26,007 nt of DNA from Oscillospiraceae bacterium (GTDB taxonomy: Bacteria; Bacillota_A; Clostridia; Oscillospirales; Oscillospiraceae), in assembly GCA_017549325.1 (NCBI GenBank), contig JAFYVA010000089.1, positions 1 through 26,007 on the forward strand, read 5' to 3'. The notes under the pieces are model-generated. The model searched no databases. It was not told the DNA's origin and worked only from the letters and a program-made list of their open reading frames with translations. Both the position numbers and the translations under genes were made by a program. Positions 184-12,675 of this stretch are shown here, piece after piece (the first letter of the stretch is position 1; every line of letters starts with the position of its first letter).

Positions 184-303
184 AAAGCCTCCCTTGTGTA
201 AAGGGAGGTGCTGAACGAAGTGAAGCGGAGGGATTGACACAAAAACCGACAACCCCTCAGTCAGCCTCGCGGCTGACAGCTCCCCTTACACAGGGGAGCC
301 TTT
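184..303. mobile_element. Putative 120-bp MITE-like inverted pair of repeat elements
   Basis: Two two-hairpin elements face each other tail to tail. The left one begins AAAGCCTCCCTTGTGTAAAG (184-203), with the stem CCTCCCTT/AAGGGAGG, and ends GGAGGGATTG. The right one, read on the minus strand from 303, begins AAAGGCTCCCCTGTGTAAGG, followed by a TGTCAGCC/GGCTGAC hairpin and TGAGGGGTTG. The outer 20-25 bases therefore form an imperfect terminal inverted repeat, and only about 17 AT-rich bases separate the two tails. No target-site duplication is clear. The organisation matches the DUF559 cassette at 2997-3458 without the gene, so this may be a non-autonomous relative. The right end touches the stop codon of the Crp/Fnr gene. 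Confidence 0.6.
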
Positions 304-949
304 ATTCTTTCACCACGAACTCGCTCTTGCGGTATTCGATGACGCCCTCGCCTTTCAACTGCGACAGCACGCGGCTGAGGGCACTGCGGTCGCAGCCGAG
401 AAACTGCGCCATGCCCTGCCGATCCAGCGGCAGCGTGAACCACTCTCCCACGGCGGGGGCGCTGTCGCGCAAGTACCGCAGCACCCGCGTTTTCAGCCGC
501 GGCTCCAGCAGGTAGGCGATGCGCCGCCGCTGCTGCCAGAACTTCTCCCCCGTCTCGGTCAGGAGATTGCGCTGCACACGCCGCAGTGGCAGGGGCACCT
601 CCCCCGCCAGCGGGAACAATCCCTCCCGCGGCAGCAGCAGCACCGCCGTATCCTCCCGCGCCAGCAGCGTCACGGGGCTGAGGCTCTCCGAGGTCATCAG
701 CACGTCGCCCACCACCTCTCCCGGGCCGTGGTAGGCCACCAGCTCCGCTGCGCCGTCGCGGCTGTAGGCCACCGCCTCCACCGCGCCGAAGAGGACGATG
801 GCCAGGGACTTGACCTGCTCCCCCTGCCGCCACAGCTGCTCACGGGCCGAAAGCTCCCGTCGGTATCCCCCCGCAAGGGACACCACCGTTTCGATCTCCC
901 CCGCGCCCAAGCCCGCAAACAGACTCACGCCCTGCAATTCCTGCCACAT
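302..949 (-). CDS. Crp/Fnr-family transcriptional regulator
   Basis: This 215-residue protein has the usual Crp/Fnr length and layout: an N-terminal cyclic-nucleotide-binding-like beta roll (about 8-120), a dimerisation helix (about 122-145) and a C-terminal winged helix-turn-helix. The HTH lies at about 177-200, with recognition helix DRSALSR (187-193). Compared with E. coli CRP (RETVGR), the Glu that reads the GTGA half-site is Ser, so target preference cannot be read across. The pocket lacks the Crp cAMP signature (GE...RA). There is no N-terminal cysteine cluster for an Fnr-type 4Fe-4S centre, and the only cysteine is C186, next to the recognition helix. The ligand or signal is unknown. 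A GGGAGGA ribosome site precedes the ATG at 949. The gene diverges from the ECF S gene across a perfect palindrome (973-988), a candidate operator. Confidence 0.9.
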   Translation of the reverse strand: MWQELQGVSLFAGLGAGEIETVVSLAGGYRRELSAREQLWRQGEQVKSLAIVLFGAVEAVAYSRDGAAELVAYHGPGEVVGDVLMTSESLSPVTLLAREDTAVLLLPREGLFPLAGEVPLPLRRVQRNLLTETGEKFWQQRRRIAYLLEPRLKTRVLRYLRDSAPAVGEWFTLPLDRQGMAQFLGCDRSALSRVLSQLKGEGVIEYRKSEFVVKE

Positions 950-972: not shown

Positions 973-1014
973 CGTTGCCGCTGCAACGGAATTCCCTCTC
1001 TTTTCTGGTATACT
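973..1014 (+). promoter_or_regulatory. Promoter of ECF S gene with class II-positioned palindrome
   Basis: An extended -10, TGGTATACT (1006-1014), has no recognisable -35. A perfect inverted repeat, CGTTGC-CGCT-GCAACG (973-988), is centred at 980.5, about 40 bp before the expected transcription start. Crp/Fnr class II activators bind there. The core GTTGC-N4-GCAAC has the 5-4-5 geometry of Fnr-type boxes. The site also lies 24 bp upstream of the divergent Crp/Fnr start codon, so it could serve autoregulation. Confidence 0.6.
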
Positions 1015-1063
1015 ACTAGAAAAATGCGGAAAACGCAAGAAAAAGTTAAGCGAGGTACTCCCC

Positions 1064-1588
1064 ATGAAAAAGAAAACTCTCTGGATCGCCGAAACGGCGG
1101 TGATGATCGCGCTGCTGGTGGCCTTGCAGGGCCTCACCAAGCCCGCCGGACAGTTCGTGACCGGCTCCTGCGTCAACCTGATCCTCGGCGTGTCCACGCT
1201 GGTGGGCGGATTGTGGTGCGGTTTGACCGTCGCCCTGCTCTCTCCCTTCTTCGCCTTCTTGCTGGGCATCGGCCCGGCCCTCATCCAGATCGTGCCCGCC
1301 ATCGCCGTGGGCAACATCGTGCTGGTGCTGGTGCTGTGGCTGATCTGCCGCAAGGCCAAGAAGCTCTCTCCCCTCCACTACGGCGGCGCCGTGGTGGCCT
1401 CGGTGTGCAAGTTCGCCGCGCTCTATGCCCTGGTGGTGCTGCTGCTCCTTCCCCTCCTGGGCCTGCCCGAGAAGCAGGTGGCCATGATGAGCGCCATGTT
1501 CTCCTGGCCCCAGCTGGTGACCGCCCTCATCGGCAGCTTCCTCGCCGTTACCGTCTCCCCCGTCATCCGTAAGGCGCTGCACCGCTGA
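1064..1588 (+). CDS. ECF-type transporter S component (integral membrane, substrate unknown)
   Basis: This 174-residue, very hydrophobic protein has about five or six predicted membrane segments, beginning MKKKTLWIAETAVMIALL. Size, a basic N-terminus and a small-residue-rich first helix (ALLVALQGL) fit substrate-binding S components of energy-coupling-factor importers. These bind a vitamin or metal and share a separate EcfAAT module, which is not in this window. No substrate signature (thiamine, riboflavin, biotin, folate) was recognised and no riboswitch fits in the short leader. The start at 1064 was chosen because the reading frame upstream overlaps the divergent regulator and lacks a ribosome site; GCGAGG sits about 8 bases before this ATG. 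The promoter carries a palindrome at an activator position, so control by the neighbouring Crp/Fnr protein is plausible. Family assignment is moderately sure. Confidence 0.75.
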   Translation: MKKKTLWIAETAVMIALLVALQGLTKPAGQFVTGSCVNLILGVSTLVGGLWCGLTVALLSPFFAFLLGIGPALIQIVPAIAVGNIVLVLVLWLICRKAKKLSPLHYGGAVVASVCKFAALYALVVLLLLPLLGLPEKQVAMMSAMFSWPQLVTALIGSFLAVTVSPVIRKALHR

Positions 1589-1600
1589 AACAGTCAAAAA

Positions 1601-1637
1601 AATCCCTCCCCTGCCCCCACGGCAGGGGAGGATTTTT
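1601..1637 (+). terminator. Intrinsic terminator after ECF S gene
   Basis: CTCCCCTGCC and GGCAGGGGAG pair around a CCCAC loop, extended by AATCC/GGATT with one bulged C and followed by six T residues. Confidence 0.9.
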
Positions 1638-1645
1638 TGCATCGG

Positions 1646-1688
1646 TGTGACATTTATCACCGCCAAATGCCGCAAACTATGATATACT
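1646..1688 (+). promoter_or_regulatory. ccdA-tlpA promoter with Crp-like site
   Basis: TGTGA-CATTTA-TCACC (1646-1661) matches nine of the ten defined bases of the Crp consensus TGTGA-N6-TCACA. Its centre (1653.5) lies 29.5 bp before TATACT (1683-1688), which has an upstream TG making an extended -10. The predicted start near 1695 puts the site at -41.5, the class II activator position. The -35 region (CCGCCA) is poor, consistent with activator dependence. Confidence 0.6.
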
Positions 1689-1720
1689 GGCCCCAGAAAC
1701 CAAGAAAGGAGTGCTTTTCC

Positions 1721-2380
1721 ATGACCTATCTCATCTCCTTTTTAGAGGGCATCGTCACCTTCCTCTCCCCCTGCCTGCTGCCCATGCTGCCCATCTATCT
1801 GGGCTACTTCGCCGGCGGCGGCGAGCGCTCCACCGCCAAAACGCTGTGGCGCGTGGTGGGCTTCATTCTGGGCTTTACGGTGGTGTTCATGGCTCTCGGT
1901 GCCCTTGCCGGCACGCTGGGCAGCTTCTTGAGCCGCCATCAGCTGTGGGTCAATATCGTCACCGGCGCGGTGGTCATCTTCTTCGGTCTCCACTTCCTCG
2001 GCCTCTTTCAGCTGAAGCTCTTCCGGGGGGCAGGCGGTGCGGTGAAGTCCGACATGGGCTTTTTCTCCGCTTTTCTGTTCGGCCTCGTCTTTTCCCTCGG
2101 CTGGACGCCCTGCGTAGGTGCCTTCCTCGGCTCGGCGCTGGCACTGGCCTCCCAACAGGGCCACGTGCTGCAGGGCATGGTGATGCTCCTTTGCTACTCC
2201 CTCGGCCTCGGCGTCCCCTTCCTGCTGAGCGCCGTCCTCATCGACAGGCTCAAATCCGCCTTCACCTTCATCAAGCGCCACTACCGCATCATCAACATCG
2301 TCTGCGGCGCAGCACTGATTATCCTTGGCCTCGCCATGGCCACAGGCCTCATGAACCGTCTGCTGACCGCTCTGGGATAA
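1721..2380 (+). CDS. ccdA: CcdA-family thiol-disulfide electron carrier (membrane)
   Basis: This 219-residue polytopic membrane protein belongs to the CcdA/DsbD-beta family, which passes reducing equivalents from cytosolic thioredoxin to thioredoxin-like proteins outside the membrane. The two diagnostic cysteines are visible: C18 in SPCLLPMLP and C131 in GWTPCVGAFLG. About six hydrophobic helices are spaced as usual for the family, and the length is typical. The start at 1721 follows AAAGGAG by nine bases. The TlpA-like gene begins 11 bases after the stop, forming a two-gene operon of electron donor and periplasm-facing acceptor. In an anaerobe without recognisable cytochrome c genes here, the pair more likely serves disulfide reduction or oxidative repair than cytochrome maturation (inference). 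Confidence 0.93.
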   Translation: MTYLISFLEGIVTFLSPCLLPMLPIYLGYFAGGGERSTAKTLWRVVGFILGFTVVFMALGALAGTLGSFLSRHQLWVNIVTGAVVIFFGLHFLGLFQLKLFRGAGGAVKSDMGFFSAFLFGLVFSLGWTPCVGAFLGSALALASQQGHVLQGMVMLLCYSLGLGVPFLLSAVLIDRLKSAFTFIKRHYRIINIVCGAALIILGLAMATGLMNRLLTALG

Positions 2381-2390
2381 GGAGAACACT

Positions 2391-2942
2391 ATGAAAAACA
2401 AAAGCTTACTCATCATTCTGGCTCTTCTGGTGGTGATCCTTCTGGCCGCCGTCCCCCTGTACCGCAACCTCAGCGGCACAGTCAGCGACCCCGCCCCCAC
2501 CGTCAGCCAGCCGCAAGCCACCGCCATCCCCGCCCCCGACTTCACCTTCACCACCCTCGAGGGGCAGGAGGTGCGCCTTTCGGACTACTTCGGCAAACCC
2601 ATCGTGCTGAACTTCTGGGCCAGCAACTGCATCTACTGCGTATACGAGATGCCCTCGTTCCAGCAGGCCTACGAGCTCTACGGCGAGGAGGTGCAGTTCC
2701 TGATGGTCAACGTCACCAGCGGCCGCTGGGACAGCGAGGCCACCGCCCGCGAGTACCTCGAATCCGTCGACTACACGCTGCCCTTCTTCCTCAACACCGA
2801 TGACGACGCCACCGCCCCCTACGATCTCTACGGTCTGCCCGTCACCTATTTCCTCAATGCCGAGGGCAATCTGGTGGGCAAGCGCAGCGGCATGTTGAGC
2901 CACGAGCTGCTGCTGGGCGGCATCGACCTCATCCACCACTAA
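2391..2942 (+). CDS. TlpA/ResA-like membrane-anchored thioredoxin
   Basis: This 183-residue protein has an uncleaved-looking N-terminal anchor (about 5-22), a Pro/Ala/Thr-rich linker (30-47) and an AhpC-TSA/thioredoxin fold domain (about 48-183). The redox site is WASNCIYC (76-83), with C80 and C83; CIYC is an unusual CxxC variant compared with WCxxC in ResA/TlpA. The cis-proline loop is in GLPVTYF. The protein should sit outside the membrane and be kept reduced by the CcdA encoded just upstream. AAGGAGA lies a few bases before the ATG. Its targets are not evident from neighbours. A perfect 11-bp-stem hairpin follows the stop codon. Confidence 0.9.
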   Translation: MKNKSLLIILALLVVILLAAVPLYRNLSGTVSDPAPTVSQPQATAIPAPDFTFTTLEGQEVRLSDYFGKPIVLNFWASNCIYCVYEMPSFQQAYELYGEEVQFLMVNVTSGRWDSEATAREYLESVDYTLPFFLNTDDDATAPYDLYGLPVTYFLNAEGNLVGKRSGMLSHELLLGGIDLIHH

Positions 2943-2950
2943 GACGCAAA

Positions 2951-2982
2951 AACACACTCCCCCTGCGGGAGTGTGTTGTTTG
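2951..2982 (+). terminator. Terminator of ccdA-tlpA operon
   Basis: AACACACTCCC (2951-2961) pairs perfectly with GGGAGTGTGTT (2967-2977) around CCTGC, followed by the T-rich run GTTTGT. Confidence 0.85.
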
Positions 2983-2996
2983 TATACGCAGCCGCC

Positions 2997-3458
2997 CTTG
3001 GCTCTCCCTTTGGGAGAGCTGTCACCGTAGGTGACTGAGAGGGCCTTGCAGCCGCTTTTGAATTGTCATGTCAATTTGTTCGCACACACCACGAAAATCT
3101 CTGTCGATATCCCGGTTGGAAAATCGCAAGACCTCCAAGCCCAGAGCCGACAAAAACACAGAACGCTCTGCATCATATGCCATACCTTGCGGCTCATAAT
3201 GCTGAGAACCGTCTACTTCGATAATCAGCTTTGCAGAAGCGCAGTAAAAGTCCACGATAAACCCGCCAATGATCCGCTGCTTGTAAACCTTCACCGGATA
3301 TTTGCGGAGAAAAAGGTACCAAAGCTTGCGCTCATGGGGCGTCATTTCCCTGCGGAGCCGCCGCGCACTTTCCAATTTGCTGTTATCTTTTGGTATCGTC
3401 ATATTCACCCTCTCCGACCTCGCTTCGCTCGGCCACCTCTCCCAAAGGGAGAGGCAAG
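2997..3458. mobile_element. Putative DUF559 cassette bounded by inverted two-hairpin repeats
   Basis: The left repeat (2997-3043) reads CTTG, then GCTCTCCC-TTT-GGGAGAGC, then GTCACC-GTA-GGTGAC, then TGAGAGGG. The right repeat (3408-3458), read on the minus strand, has the same order: CTTG, CCTCTCCC-TTT-GGGAGAGG, a second imperfect hairpin, GGAGAGGG. The outer 24 bases agree at about 22 positions and face inward, so the 462-bp unit looks like a mobile cassette with terminal inverted repeats. Only a DUF559 gene lies between. No transposase and no clear target-site duplication is present, so mobility is inferred from architecture and from the similar empty pair at 184-303. Confidence 0.5.
3022..3402 (-). 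CDS. DUF559 domain protein (VSR-like PD-(D/E)XK nuclease fold)
   Basis: This 126-residue protein matches the DUF559 family, related to very-short-patch-repair endonucleases. It has the TPHERKLWYLFL helix (21-32), then a restriction-like core, GGFIVDFYC (46-54) and KLIIEVDGSQH (58-68). D51, E62 and D64 are the likely metal ligands, and H68 is conserved. LGLEVLRFSNRDI follows (88-100). The exact role of the family is not established; nicking or mismatch repair is inferred from the fold. The ATG at 3402 was chosen because the frame upstream only reads through repeat sequence. The GGAGAGGG ribosome site and the last six or seven codons, including the stop, are supplied by the flanking repeats. 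The gene is lone and its neighbours are unrelated. Confidence 0.85.
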   Translation of the reverse strand: MTIPKDNSKLESARRLRREMTPHERKLWYLFLRKYPVKVYKQRIIGGFIVDFYCASAKLIIEVDGSQHYEPQGMAYDAERSVFLSALGLEVLRFSNRDIDRDFRGVCEQIDMTIQKRLQGPLSHLR

Positions 3459-3505
3459 TAACGCGCTCAGCCCACCCCACCGGACGGTGTATGTCTCATG
3501 CAACC

Positions 3506-4222
3506 TCACTTCTCAAACCGAATGAGGGCGCGGCTCTCGCCCTCAGCGCCCCGCACGGACACGGTGCAGCCGCCCGCATCCTCACGGTAGAGACACTGCA
3601 CCTCCTCGCCGCACAGCACCGCCTTGCGGTAGTAGATGGTGAAGCGGTCACACTCGCCGCGGTCATAGACCTCCTGCGGCAGGGCACACAGCGCCAGATC
3701 CATGTAGTGGACGTTATTAAGATGCTCGTTGGTGTCGATGAAATACCGCTCCACGGTGCAGCGGTAGGTACACTGCCCCTCCTCGGACTCCCGCAGCTTG
3801 GCGATCCACGGCGAGGGGAAGTTGCCCCGCTGGGGCTCACTGCCGTACTGGTCAAAGAGTTCTCGCGTCAGCCGTTGCAGCTTGCCCGTATTGCCGTCGA
3901 TGCGCACCCAGTTGGAGATGGCCGTCACCATCAGCTCCCCCGCCTCATCGTACAGTTCGAACTCGCGGCAGGAGGTCACGCCCTTCATGTCCCGGTTCCA
4001 GCTCCGGAGCGTCAGCTCCTGCCCCAGCTTGGGGCGGCGATGGACGCACACCTGATACGCCAGCAGCACCCAGCGGTCGGTGGTGTCCCAAAGGCCGTCG
4101 TTCACCGCCGTGCCGTGCATGGTGGCGATGTCCTCAAACATCCGCAAAAGGCCGCTGTTGGTGATGGCCAGATCCTTCCCCACGCTGCTGTAGCCCACAT
4201 AAAACTGATGGGTAAATACCAT
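3506..4222 (-). CDS. Acyl-ACP thioesterase (FatA/FatB-like double hot-dog)
   Basis: This 238-residue protein fits the acyl-ACP thioesterase family (PF01643 type), which hydrolyses acyl-ACP to free fatty acid in the cytosol. The first hot-dog half is about 1-115 and the second about 150-238. The catalytic motif DTNEHLNNVHYMD (163-175) carries the D-x-N-x-H triad seen in plant FatB enzymes (D163, N165, H167). The length is normal for bacterial members. An AAGGAGAG ribosome site precedes the ATG at 4222, and the promoter is a good sigma-A match. It diverges from the ferredoxin-domain gene. The likely role is fatty-acid release or membrane-lipid adjustment; chain-length preference cannot be read. 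Confidence 0.88.
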   Translation of the reverse strand: MVFTHQFYVGYSSVGKDLAITNSGLLRMFEDIATMHGTAVNDGLWDTTDRWVLLAYQVCVHRRPKLGQELTLRSWNRDMKGVTSCREFELYDEAGELMVTAISNWVRIDGNTGKLQRLTRELFDQYGSEPQRGNFPSPWIAKLRESEEGQCTYRCTVERYFIDTNEHLNNVHYMDLALCALPQEVYDRGECDRFTIYYRKAVLCGEEVQCLYREDAGGCTVSVRGAEGESRALIRFEK

Positions 4223-4252
4223 TGACTTCCCTCTCCTTGGTCATTTTTCCCC

Positions 4253-4281
4253 ACTATACCACAATGCGGGGCGTTTTTCAA
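4253..4281 (-). promoter_or_regulatory. Sigma-A promoter of thioesterase gene
   Basis: On the minus strand TTGAAA (4281-4276), a 17-bp spacer and TATAGT (4258-4253) form a near-consensus promoter about 30 bases before the start codon. Confidence 0.75.
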
Positions 4282-4296
4282 CTTTTTCCACCGTTG

Positions 4297-4340
4297 CTGT
4301 TGCATAAACAACAGTTGTACACCGTTTCCCATGGTATACT
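4297..4340 (+). promoter_or_regulatory. Promoter of ferredoxin gene with perfect 18-bp palindrome
   Basis: CTGTTG-CATAAA-CAACAG (4297-4314) is a perfect inverted repeat centred at 4305.5. It lies 29.5 bp before the extended -10 TGGTATACT (4332-4340), the same spacing as at the ccdA promoter and one base from that at the ECF S promoter. There is no good -35. The palindrome also lies 16 bp upstream of the divergent thioesterase -35, so it could affect both genes. Confidence 0.6.
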
Positions 4341-4373
4341 TGTGGCAGAAACAACTGTAAGGAGGACGGGACT

Positions 4374-5087
4374 ATGCTCCGTAAGATCATCAAAATCGAC
4401 GAGGACAAGTGTATCGGCTGCGGCCTGTGCGCTGCCGCCTGCCACGAGGGCGCCATCGGCATGGTGGATGGCAAGGCAAAGCTGCTGCGTGAGGACTACT
4501 GCGACGGTCTGGGGGACTGTCTCCCCGCCTGTCCCACCGGCGCCATCACCTTTGAAGAGCGGGAGGCCCCCGCCTACGACGAGGCCGCCGTACTGGCCGC
4601 CAAGGCCGCCAAGGAGGCCGCCGACGGCGCGCTCCCCTGCGGCTGTCCCGGCTCCATGGCCAAATCCATCACCCCCACCTGCGAGTGCGCATCCGCACCC
4701 GCACCTGCTGCACCCGTGGCCTCGCAACTGCGCCAGTGGCCGGTGCAGATCAAGCTGGCGCCCCCCACCGCCCCCTACTTCCACGGCGCACACCTGCTGG
4801 TGGCCGCCGACTGCACCGCCTACGCCTACGGCAACTTCCACAACGAGTTTCTCCGCGGCAAAGTCTGCCTCGTGGGCTGCCCCAAGCTGGACAGCGTGGA
4901 CTACTCTGAGAAGCTGACGGCCATCCTCGCCGCCAACGACATCAAGTCCGTCACCGTGGTGCGGATGGAGGTCCCCTGCTGCGGCGGCATCGAGACGGCG
5001 GTGAAGAACGCCCTCCTCGGCAGCGGCAAGCTGGTGCCGTGGCAGGTGGTGACCGTCACCACCGACGGCCGTATTCTGGATCGCTAA
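4374..5087 (+). CDS. 4Fe-4S ferredoxin-domain protein (cysteine-rich)
   Basis: This 237-residue protein has an N-terminal two-cluster ferredoxin domain. CIGCGLCAAAC supplies C13, C16, C19 and C23; the second set is C43, C49 and C53 followed by Pro (PACPTGAI). An Ala-rich linker follows, then CGC (C89, C91) and CEC (C103, C105). A C-terminal domain of about 100 residues holds C147, C165, C169 and the pair C202-C203. The extra cysteines suggest further metal or redox sites. Similar proteins in Clostridia are annotated as 4Fe-4S or FrdX-like proteins, some near hybrid-cluster-protein (hcp) genes; no hcp is present here. The ribosome site AAGGAGG and ATG at 4374 are clear. A monocistronic transcript is likely, since a strong terminator follows. 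Confidence 0.85.
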   Translation: MLRKIIKIDEDKCIGCGLCAAACHEGAIGMVDGKAKLLREDYCDGLGDCLPACPTGAITFEEREAPAYDEAAVLAAKAAKEAADGALPCGCPGSMAKSITPTCECASAPAPAAPVASQLRQWPVQIKLAPPTAPYFHGAHLLVAADCTAYAYGNFHNEFLRGKVCLVGCPKLDSVDYSEKLTAILAANDIKSVTVVRMEVPCCGGIETAVKNALLGSGKLVPWQVVTVTTDGRILDR

Positions 5088-5095
5088 AACAGAGC

Positions 5096-5124
5096 AAAAA
5101 GACCGCAAATGCGGTCTTTTTTCT
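5096..5124 (+). terminator. Terminator after ferredoxin gene
   Basis: AAAAAGACCGC (5096-5106) and GCGGTCTTTT (5111-5120) pair around AAAT, with a long T run after the stem. Confidence 0.95.
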
Positions 5125-5143: not shown

Positions 5144-5152
5144 TGGTATACT
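5144..5152 (+). promoter_or_regulatory. Extended -10 promoter of SDR gene
   Basis: TGGTATACT lies 28 bases before the start codon and has no recognisable -35. The position 29.5 bp upstream contains only the preceding terminator, so the palindrome seen at three similar promoters is absent here. Confidence 0.55.
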
Positions 5153-12203: not shown

Positions 12204-12287
12204 TAAAGGTATAGAGATGTGACACTATCCCCTTCTTGTATCAACTTTTTCTCCCCCTTCCCCTCCTGCGGCGGACGGAAATTCCCG

Positions 12288-12317
12288 TTGCATTTTTACC
12301 CTCCCTTGGTGTATAAT
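12288..12317 (+). promoter_or_regulatory. Sigma-A promoter of SnoaL-like gene
   Basis: TTGCAT (12288-12293), an 18-bp spacer and consensus TATAAT (12312-12317), about 30 bases before the start codon. Confidence 0.75.
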
Positions 12318-12348: not shown

Positions 12349-12675
12349 ATGACCAATAAGGAAATCGTACTGAATTTCTACCGTGACTTCTGGAACGCCC
12401 ACGATGTCTCCACCGTGGCACAGTTCGTCCACGAGGACTACATCCAGCACAATCCCAATGTGGAGCAGGGCCGTCAGGGTCTGGTGAATTTCGTCACCAA
12501 CATCTTCTTCAAGCGCGAGGCCAAGCACGACATCCAGTTGGCGCTGGAGGACGGCGATCTGGTGGCCGTCCATGTCTATGTCACCTTCAACGACGGGGCC
12601 AAGGCCGTGGTCACCGACATCTACCGTCTGGAAAACGGCATCATCGTCGAGCACTGGGACAGCGTGCAGAAGTAA
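12349..12675 (+). CDS. SnoaL/NTF2-like small protein
   Basis: This 108-residue protein has the cone-shaped alpha+beta fold of the SnoaL-like polyketide cyclase / ketosteroid-isomerase superfamily. Visible family features are FYRDFWNAHDVSTVAQFVHEDY near the start, here as FYRDFWN (9-15) and VHEDYIQHNP (27-36). The closing beta strands are VAVHVYVTF, DIYRLENGIIVEHWD (89-103). Members include enzymes and non-enzymatic ligand binders, so no reaction can be named. It is complete at the usual length, follows ATAGGAGGG, has its own promoter and ends at a bidirectional terminator. It looks monocistronic and its neighbours do not suggest a role. Confidence 0.88.
   Translation: MTNKEIVLNFYRDFWNAHDVSTVAQFVHEDYIQHNPNVEQGRQGLVNFVTNIFFKREAKHDIQLALEDGDLVAVHVYVTFNDGAKAVVTDIYRLENGIIVEHWDSVQK

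Follow-up and report, generated by a model that had tools for sequence, protein, structure and literature searches.

The closest described systems to the locus analyzed here are the HcpR regulons of anaerobes, in which Crp/Fnr regulators are encoded beside hcp and/or frdX and palindromes occupy activator positions (Rodionov 2004, PMC545781; Rodionov 2005, PMC1274295; C. difficile hcpR, PMC12915319). For Ser181-class HcpR members, a differing motif is reported in PMC1274295. Our subject is a 26,007-nucleotide stretch of DNA from an Oscillospiraceae bacterium (contig JAFYVA010000089.1; the whole stretch is referred to as the window), which carries a Crp/Fnr regulator gene, the gene for an energy-coupling factor (ECF) transporter S component (ecfS), a ccdA-tlpA pair, and a gene for an FrdX-like ferredoxin (frdX). 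Like the HcpR regulons, the family examined here has sites before clostridial frdX and includes members located at hcp (loci L041, L050, and L061) and at frdX-hcp (L119). In addition, the local protein resembles HcpR2-type regulators in being a two-domain Crp/Fnr protein without the FNR cysteine cluster. Its recognition helix begins with Arg-Ser (by our mapping to CRP residues 180-181), which corresponds to the Ser181 class of PMC1274295. Unlike HcpR, its predicted operator is GTTGC-N4-GCAAC, rather than GTAAC-N4-GTTAC or the two delta-proteobacterial motifs, and its predicted target is an ECF S gene. No match to hcp was found in genome G001, which contains locus L001, the closest relative of the window. 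A literature search, mostly without subscription papers, for the motif GTTGC-N4-GCAAC in four spellings and for this arrangement found no paper. HcpR regulons are already known and the ecfS-linked two-regulator arrangement proposed below is a variant on them.

The original prediction had assigned ecfS, ccdA-tlpA, and frdX to a single local redox regulon of the encoded Crp/Fnr protein. We instead favor, with moderate confidence, an arrangement of two HcpR-like Crp/Fnr regulators, in which the local one would control itself and ecfS, and ccdA-tlpA and frdX would answer mainly to a second, Cys-rich protein, referred to as RSAMMR after its recognition helix. Both would belong to an HcpR-like family, have overlapping operator specificities, and act by class II activation, with a regulator dimer centered near -41.5 contacting RNA polymerase at extended -10 promoters that have no good -35 element. 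Activation is the natural reading, given the extended -10 and the lack of a good -35. The local regulator would bind GTTGC-N4-GCAAC between its own gene and ecfS, thereby activating ecfS and probably repressing itself, and it may additionally bind the frdX site; ccdA-tlpA and frdX carry a putative sister motif, GTKRY-WWWT-GYMAC. Sequence comparison shows where the sites lie, how they are spaced and conserved, that regulator, site, and ecfS co-occur, and that there are two motif classes; that the proteins bind, activate, and autorepress, that they respond to a redox or nitrosative signal, and that the window genome encodes the second regulator are inferences. The features concerned are as follows:

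302-949, minus strand: Crp/Fnr regulator gene (215 aa; PF00027 and PF13545; recognition helix RSALSR; sole Cys in the helix-turn-helix)
974-987: predicted ecfS operator GTTGC-CGCT-GCAAC, center 980.5, between crp and ecfS
1006-1014, plus strand: extended -10 TGGTATACT of ecfS, 28.5 bp from the operator center
1064-1588, plus strand: ecfS, ECF transporter S component gene (PF12822)
1647-1660: predicted CRP-like operator of ccdA-tlpA, GTGAC-ATTT-ATCAC, center 1653.5
1680-1688, plus strand: extended -10 TGATATACT of ccdA, 29.5 bp from the operator center
1721-2380, plus strand: CcdA/DsbD-type membrane thiol electron carrier (PF02683)
2391-2942, plus strand: TlpA/ResA-type thioredoxin-like protein (PF00578; best NCBIfam match ResA, under the ResA cut-off)
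4299-4312: predicted ferredoxin-gene operator GTTGC-ATAA-ACAAC, within CTGTTG-N6-CAACAG (4297-4314), center 4305.5
4332-4340, plus strand: extended -10 TGGTATACT of the ferredoxin gene, 29.5 bp from the operator center
4374-5087, plus strand: FrdX-like ferredoxin (237 aa; PF12838; N-terminal 4Fe-4S dicluster domain and Cys-containing C-terminal part)

At the class II promoters of E. coli CRP and FNR, the operator lies near -41.5, the -10 is extended, and the -35 is weak; a distance of 29.5 bp to the first base of the -10 places the center at -41.5. When the coordinates were re-checked, all three window promoters had the predicted extended -10 (TGnTATACT) with an inverted repeat centered 28.5, 29.5, and 29.5 bp upstream, and the predicted activator position held at each of them, with the operator center at approximately -41.5 by its spacing to the -10. 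A consensus scan paired none of the three TATACT elements with a -35; a 9/12 consensus match (TTATCA-18-TATGAT) overlaps the ccdA promoter. The promoters resemble those of E. coli CRP and FNR in operator center, extended -10, and weak -35, but differ in the half-site, and the local protein is devoid of FNR-type ligand cysteines both in the window and in L001, the one Cys of the window protein being that in the helix-turn-helix. The ccdA repeat had been described as TGTGA-N6-TCACC; its position is correct, whereas its 5-bp arms are not, as the outer T/C pair is non-complementary and leaves arms of 4 bp. Mononucleotide shuffles reached the observed arm length at the given position in 4/5000 cases for ecfS, 10/5000 for frdX, and 278/5000 for ccdA, with arms of at least 4 bp occurring at 6.5% of all window positions and arms of at least 6 bp at 0.56%. 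Chance would rarely produce the ecfS and ferredoxin repeats, but the 278 shuffles leave the ccdA repeat, taken alone, without significance. A fourth TGGTATACT, at 5144 (a short-chain dehydrogenase/reductase gene), has no repeat of this kind. The palindromes are also conserved in L001, which has sites at ecfS, ccdA, and frdX (GTGGCTTATGCAAC at 29.5) and which matches the window base for base along a run of 24 positions covering the ecfS palindrome. The interpretation of the repeats as class-II-positioned Crp/Fnr operators is supported by these comparisons.

We then scored the window with two motif models, a local-class model made from 12 distinct crp/ecfS sites and an RSAMMR-class model made from 10 sites hand-chosen from genomes having RSAMMR and no local regulator. 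With the former, ecfS scored 20.2 bits (partly circular; 19.3 when left out of the model), frdX 12.7 bits (second best in the window, with 9/10 core bases of the local motif), and ccdA -8.2 bits (rank 891). With the latter, ccdA scored 16.2 bits (rank 1), frdX 15.2 (rank 2), and ecfS 10.5 (rank 5). These scores divide the three predicted sites between two overlapping motif classes, leave the assignment of the frdX site ambiguous (12.7 vs. 15.2 bits), and led us to reject a single-motif reading for ccdA. Operator overlap between the two regulators is likely, because the classes have a common core and are told apart by the makeup of their half-sites and spacers. Of the original interpretation, the ecfS operator, the class-II-like sites, and the redox-gene context in relatives are supported, whereas a single local regulator for all three sites is not, with ccdA falling to the RSAMMR class.

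The assignment of the ecfS/crp palindrome to the local regulator derives from its relatives. One genome per species was scanned, and the best 80 of 101 confirmed loci together with the window gave 81 sequences. GTTGC-N4-GCAAC occurs 77 times in these, against 1.44 expected from base composition, and is present in 72 of the 81, with nine loci lacking it; 66 sites in 64 loci are ≤350 bp from the regulator's stop-to-stop frame. Two other candidate operators, GTAAC-N4-GTTAC and TGTGA-N6-TCACA, had 0 occurrences in the 81 sequences. The distance from site center to TAnnnT peaks at 29.5 bp (53 over both sides), with a second peak at 24.5 (37); TATAGT at 24.5, which initial scoring had favored in many loci as the main -10, was rejected since the plain TAnnnT count peaks at 29.5. 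Genes beside the sites form clusters, one of which is the regulator itself. A substrate-binding lipoprotein accounts for 45 sites, ecfS for 7 in a single cluster (plus L008), a 600-aa protein with a sulfatase domain for 5 (1 member tested), hcp for 3 (L041, L050, and L061), and a short protein of NRDD-like type for 2 (1 member tested). The lipoprotein cluster, NMT1/SsuA-like in the 2 members tested, is the commonest motif neighbor in L002-L079 (Faecalibacterium, Gemmiger, and others), so that an importer gene is a frequent neighbor of this regulator family.

In a set of 60 relatives of G001, the same seven genomes have both an ortholog of the regulator (E below 1e-39, against 1e-19 for the next best match) and one of ecfS (E below 1e-41, against 2e-19), each with a perfect palindrome, which lies 28.5 bp from the -10 in six ecfS orthologs and 29.5 bp in one; two distant ecfS homologs have no palindrome. 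Because regulator, ecfS, and perfect palindrome occur in the same 7/60 genomes, the palindrome is the predicted operator of the local regulator. The end of the ecfS site and the start codon of the regulator are 24 bp apart, so the protein may also repress its own gene. In an alignment with 26 of the 50 relatives found, the recognition helix RSAL[SC]R is kept in 27/27 rows, and a tree of 107 rows (114 before removal of seven divergent sequences) places the regulator inside an 8-row clade of ecfS-linked regulators with support 100/96. Neither the window nor L001 has the Cys residues at three columns that are kept in 11/14 frdX-adjacent and 3/3 hcp-linked members, and some other ecfS-linked regulators (L008 and L177) lack them too. 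A second candidate target of the local regulator is a DUF1622 gene of G001 (L082, 1099-1431, minus strand), which has GTTGCTTTCGCAAC 29.5 bp before TATGAT.

The second regulator is encoded in G001, where the two PF13545 proteins over the cut-off are the local regulator and L141, a protein with eight Cys and the helix RSAMMR; by analogy with this closest relative, the window genome would encode one as well. RSAMMR proteins keep four Cys columns in 8/8 aligned sequences, form a separate clade (support 100/100), and have orthologs (E<1e-50) in 17/60 genomes. The pattern GTGAYNWWTGYMAC has 13 distinct matches in three genomes and 0 in the control. Seven of them are 29.5 or 30.5 bp before TAnnnT, at frdX (2), ccdA, msrA, a flavin reductase-rubredoxin gene, a tetratricopeptide repeat gene, and a small gene; the other six places in these genomes have no -10 at 29.5-30.5. 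A site of at least 7/10 core bases 29.5-30.5 bp before TAnnnT precedes a SufC-like ATPase gene in 14/18 genomes with either regulator vs. 0/12 with neither (Fisher p=2e-5), a count that covers the 30 genomes, out of 40 having the gene, whose loci were retrieved, and in which four of the 14 sites are near-identical. The name SufC-like denotes similarity only, as the protein scores below every NCBIfam cut-off among 25 families listed, and the gene had no match in G001 at E 1e-40 among 46 of 58 candidates scored. Overall, family sites in relatives are found at redox genes, namely hcp, frdX, rubrerythrin, SufC-like, msrA, and flavin reductase-rubredoxin genes. Those at rubrerythrin genes (G009 and G031) are perfect sites at 30.5 with AT-rich spacers, which possibly belong to the second motif class.

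Several points weigh against this division between two regulators. The second regulator is predicted from a relative, and the local regulators of that relative and the window share 73% identity; only perfect crp/ecfS sites went into the local-class model, which may understate the regulator's tolerance; and the RSAMMR-class model includes frdX sites, leaving ccdA as the only independent test. A site is found in just 2/22 ccdA orthologs, one of them weak. In G006, the site close to the RSAMMR gene is not followed by a -10 at class II distance, and four regulator-bearing genomes have no site at the SufC-like gene. This gene also has perfect GTTGC-N4-GCAAC sites in genomes without the local regulator, and therefore the core fails to separate the two regulators. 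Finally, the co-occurrence and Fisher counts take no account of relatedness among the genomes, and the absences are soft because no completeness figures came with the genomes.

An unlikely alternative is that ecfS, ccdA-tlpA, and frdX form one local regulon, activated by the encoded Crp/Fnr protein, which would tolerate degenerate half-sites. In its favor, the genes all fall within 5.1 kb, L001 has them in the same order, the operator spacing agrees to 1 bp, and the frdX site ranks second under the local model as described above. However, the ccdA score is strongly negative under that model, and sites at frdX and SufC-like genes occur in genomes without a detected ortholog of the local regulator. 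In addition, the genome-wide count of the perfect motif is near that of the control: G001 has four copies against 3 for the control, and the six other genomes with the local regulator have 1-4 against 2-8. The crp/ecfS site is the sole perfect motif of G011 and of G017, and two of the four in G001 are in coding sequence (L081 and tlpA) and were set aside. The other promoter-positioned perfect sites belong to the SufC-like ATPase gene (G029, G031, and G032), to the rubrerythrin genes mentioned above, and to the DUF1622 gene of G001.

The frdX promoter raises a further alternative, since many of its orthologs have a regulator of their own. In frdX orthologs L085-L108, a palindrome lies exactly 29.5 bp before TAnnnT in 20/24; by the control's own rule, the counts are 18/24 vs. 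23/960 random pieces. Of the remainder, two have weaker palindromes (L105 at 29.5 and L107 at 30.5) and two have none. A frdX homolog also lies beside hcp in L117 and L119, which fits the FrdX of the HcpR papers (PMC545781, PMC1274295, PMC12915319). At 14 of 25 frdX loci (L085-L109), the adjoining gene encodes a Crp/Fnr protein, and these regulators group apart from the other labeled groups (support 82/86; 100/96 without L109). Most of their loci have GTTGW or GTTGG sites; L096 and L100 have GTGGT, and L108 has GTAGC/ACCAC. The window site could be a relic of, or be served by, a third regulator of this type encoded elsewhere in the genome, with ccdA independent. We consider this very unlikely, as G001 has only its two PF13545 proteins over the cut-off, neither of the frdX-adjacent type, and frdX sites without a neighboring regulator differ, with GTGAY/GTGGC...GCAAC in five (L085, L103, L104, L106, and L107) and one GTTGC half-site each in L090 and L105.

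The sixth residue of the helix motif (185 in CRP numbering by our mapping) is Arg in regulators whose half-sites end in C; in the frdX-adjacent group it is not Arg, and half-sites mostly end in another base. For the 13 frdX-adjacent regulators with a site read (L086-L108), this residue is never Arg, none has GTTGC-N4-GCAAC, and the half-sites are mostly GTTGT, GTTGA, and GTTGG. As they form one tree group, the non-Arg regulators possibly reflect one evolutionary event.

Another very unlikely alternative is that the ccdA repeat is a chance occurrence and only ecfS and frdX are controlled, which would accord with the 278/5000 shuffles and with the 20/22 ccdA orthologs without a site by the rule used, but not with its rank of 1 in the window by a model trained without any ccdA site, nor with L001, whose ccdA promoter keeps TGTGACAT-T-TCACCG amid diverged flanks and forms a perfect 5-bp palindrome (GTGACATATGTCAC, 30.5 bp from the -10).

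The regulator gene and ecfS form a divergent pair, followed past ecfS by ccdA-tlpA (1721-2942), a DUF559 gene, an acyl-ACP (acyl carrier protein) thioesterase gene, and the ferredoxin gene. A terminator-like hairpin behind each of ecfS, tlpA, and the ferredoxin gene suggests three separate transcription units:

1605-1631, plus strand: terminator-like hairpin 3' of ecfS, between ecfS and ccdA
2951-2977, plus strand: terminator-like hairpin 3' of tlpA
5096-5121, plus strand: terminator-like hairpin 3' of the ferredoxin gene

The divergent thioesterase gene has a good promoter, TTGAAA-17-TATAGT, with an extended -10 (4253-4281, minus strand), and the ferredoxin operator would lie near its -59.5. 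Just downstream of the ferredoxin -10 is a weaker site, GTGGC-AGAA-ACAAC (4342-4355; 10.7 bits with the RSAMMR-class model and 7.1 with the local one), a possible repression site. Elsewhere in the window, GTTGCATTTTTACC (12287-12300) lies 18.5 bp before the TATAAT of a gene at 12349, a spacing that does not fit class II, and stem-like short intergenic repeats were seen by eye near the Crp/Fnr and DUF559 genes (1-300, 3000-3060, and 3410-3460).

The EcfS protein belongs with the ECF S components by fold and domain. Its predicted structure (predicted local distance difference test, pLDDT, 91.3) best matches PDB entry 3p5n, an ECF S component (Foldseek E 0.004, template modeling score 0.71), followed by TmRibU; several S components matched at weak E-values and did not decide the substrate. 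The protein is like the RibU/ThiT/PanT-type vitamin S components in fold and PF12822, but unlike them it has no NCBIfam match at E 0.001, and Rfam gave no match at gathering score in the window, arguing against a riboswitch or other known RNA at ecfS; a predicted Crp/Fnr operator is found instead.

The preferred two-regulator arrangement provides a concrete predicted operator, GTTGC-N4-GCAAC, for a regulator family in widespread, mostly uncultured Clostridia, ties an orphan ECF S component to a Crp/Fnr regulator family, and offers a natural test of how operators are divided among paralogous Crp/Fnr proteins. Beyond this, one may speculate, though we regard it as rather doubtful, that in this clade a regulator of the HcpR lineage lost its ligand Cys residues and came to serve solely as the switch for an orphan flavin- or vitamin-type ECF importer, with its Cys-rich sister keeping frdX, ccdA-tlpA, the SufC-like gene, msrA, and the flavin reductase-rubredoxin gene. 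If true, the shared operators would cross-wire cofactor uptake and redox repair at the DNA level.

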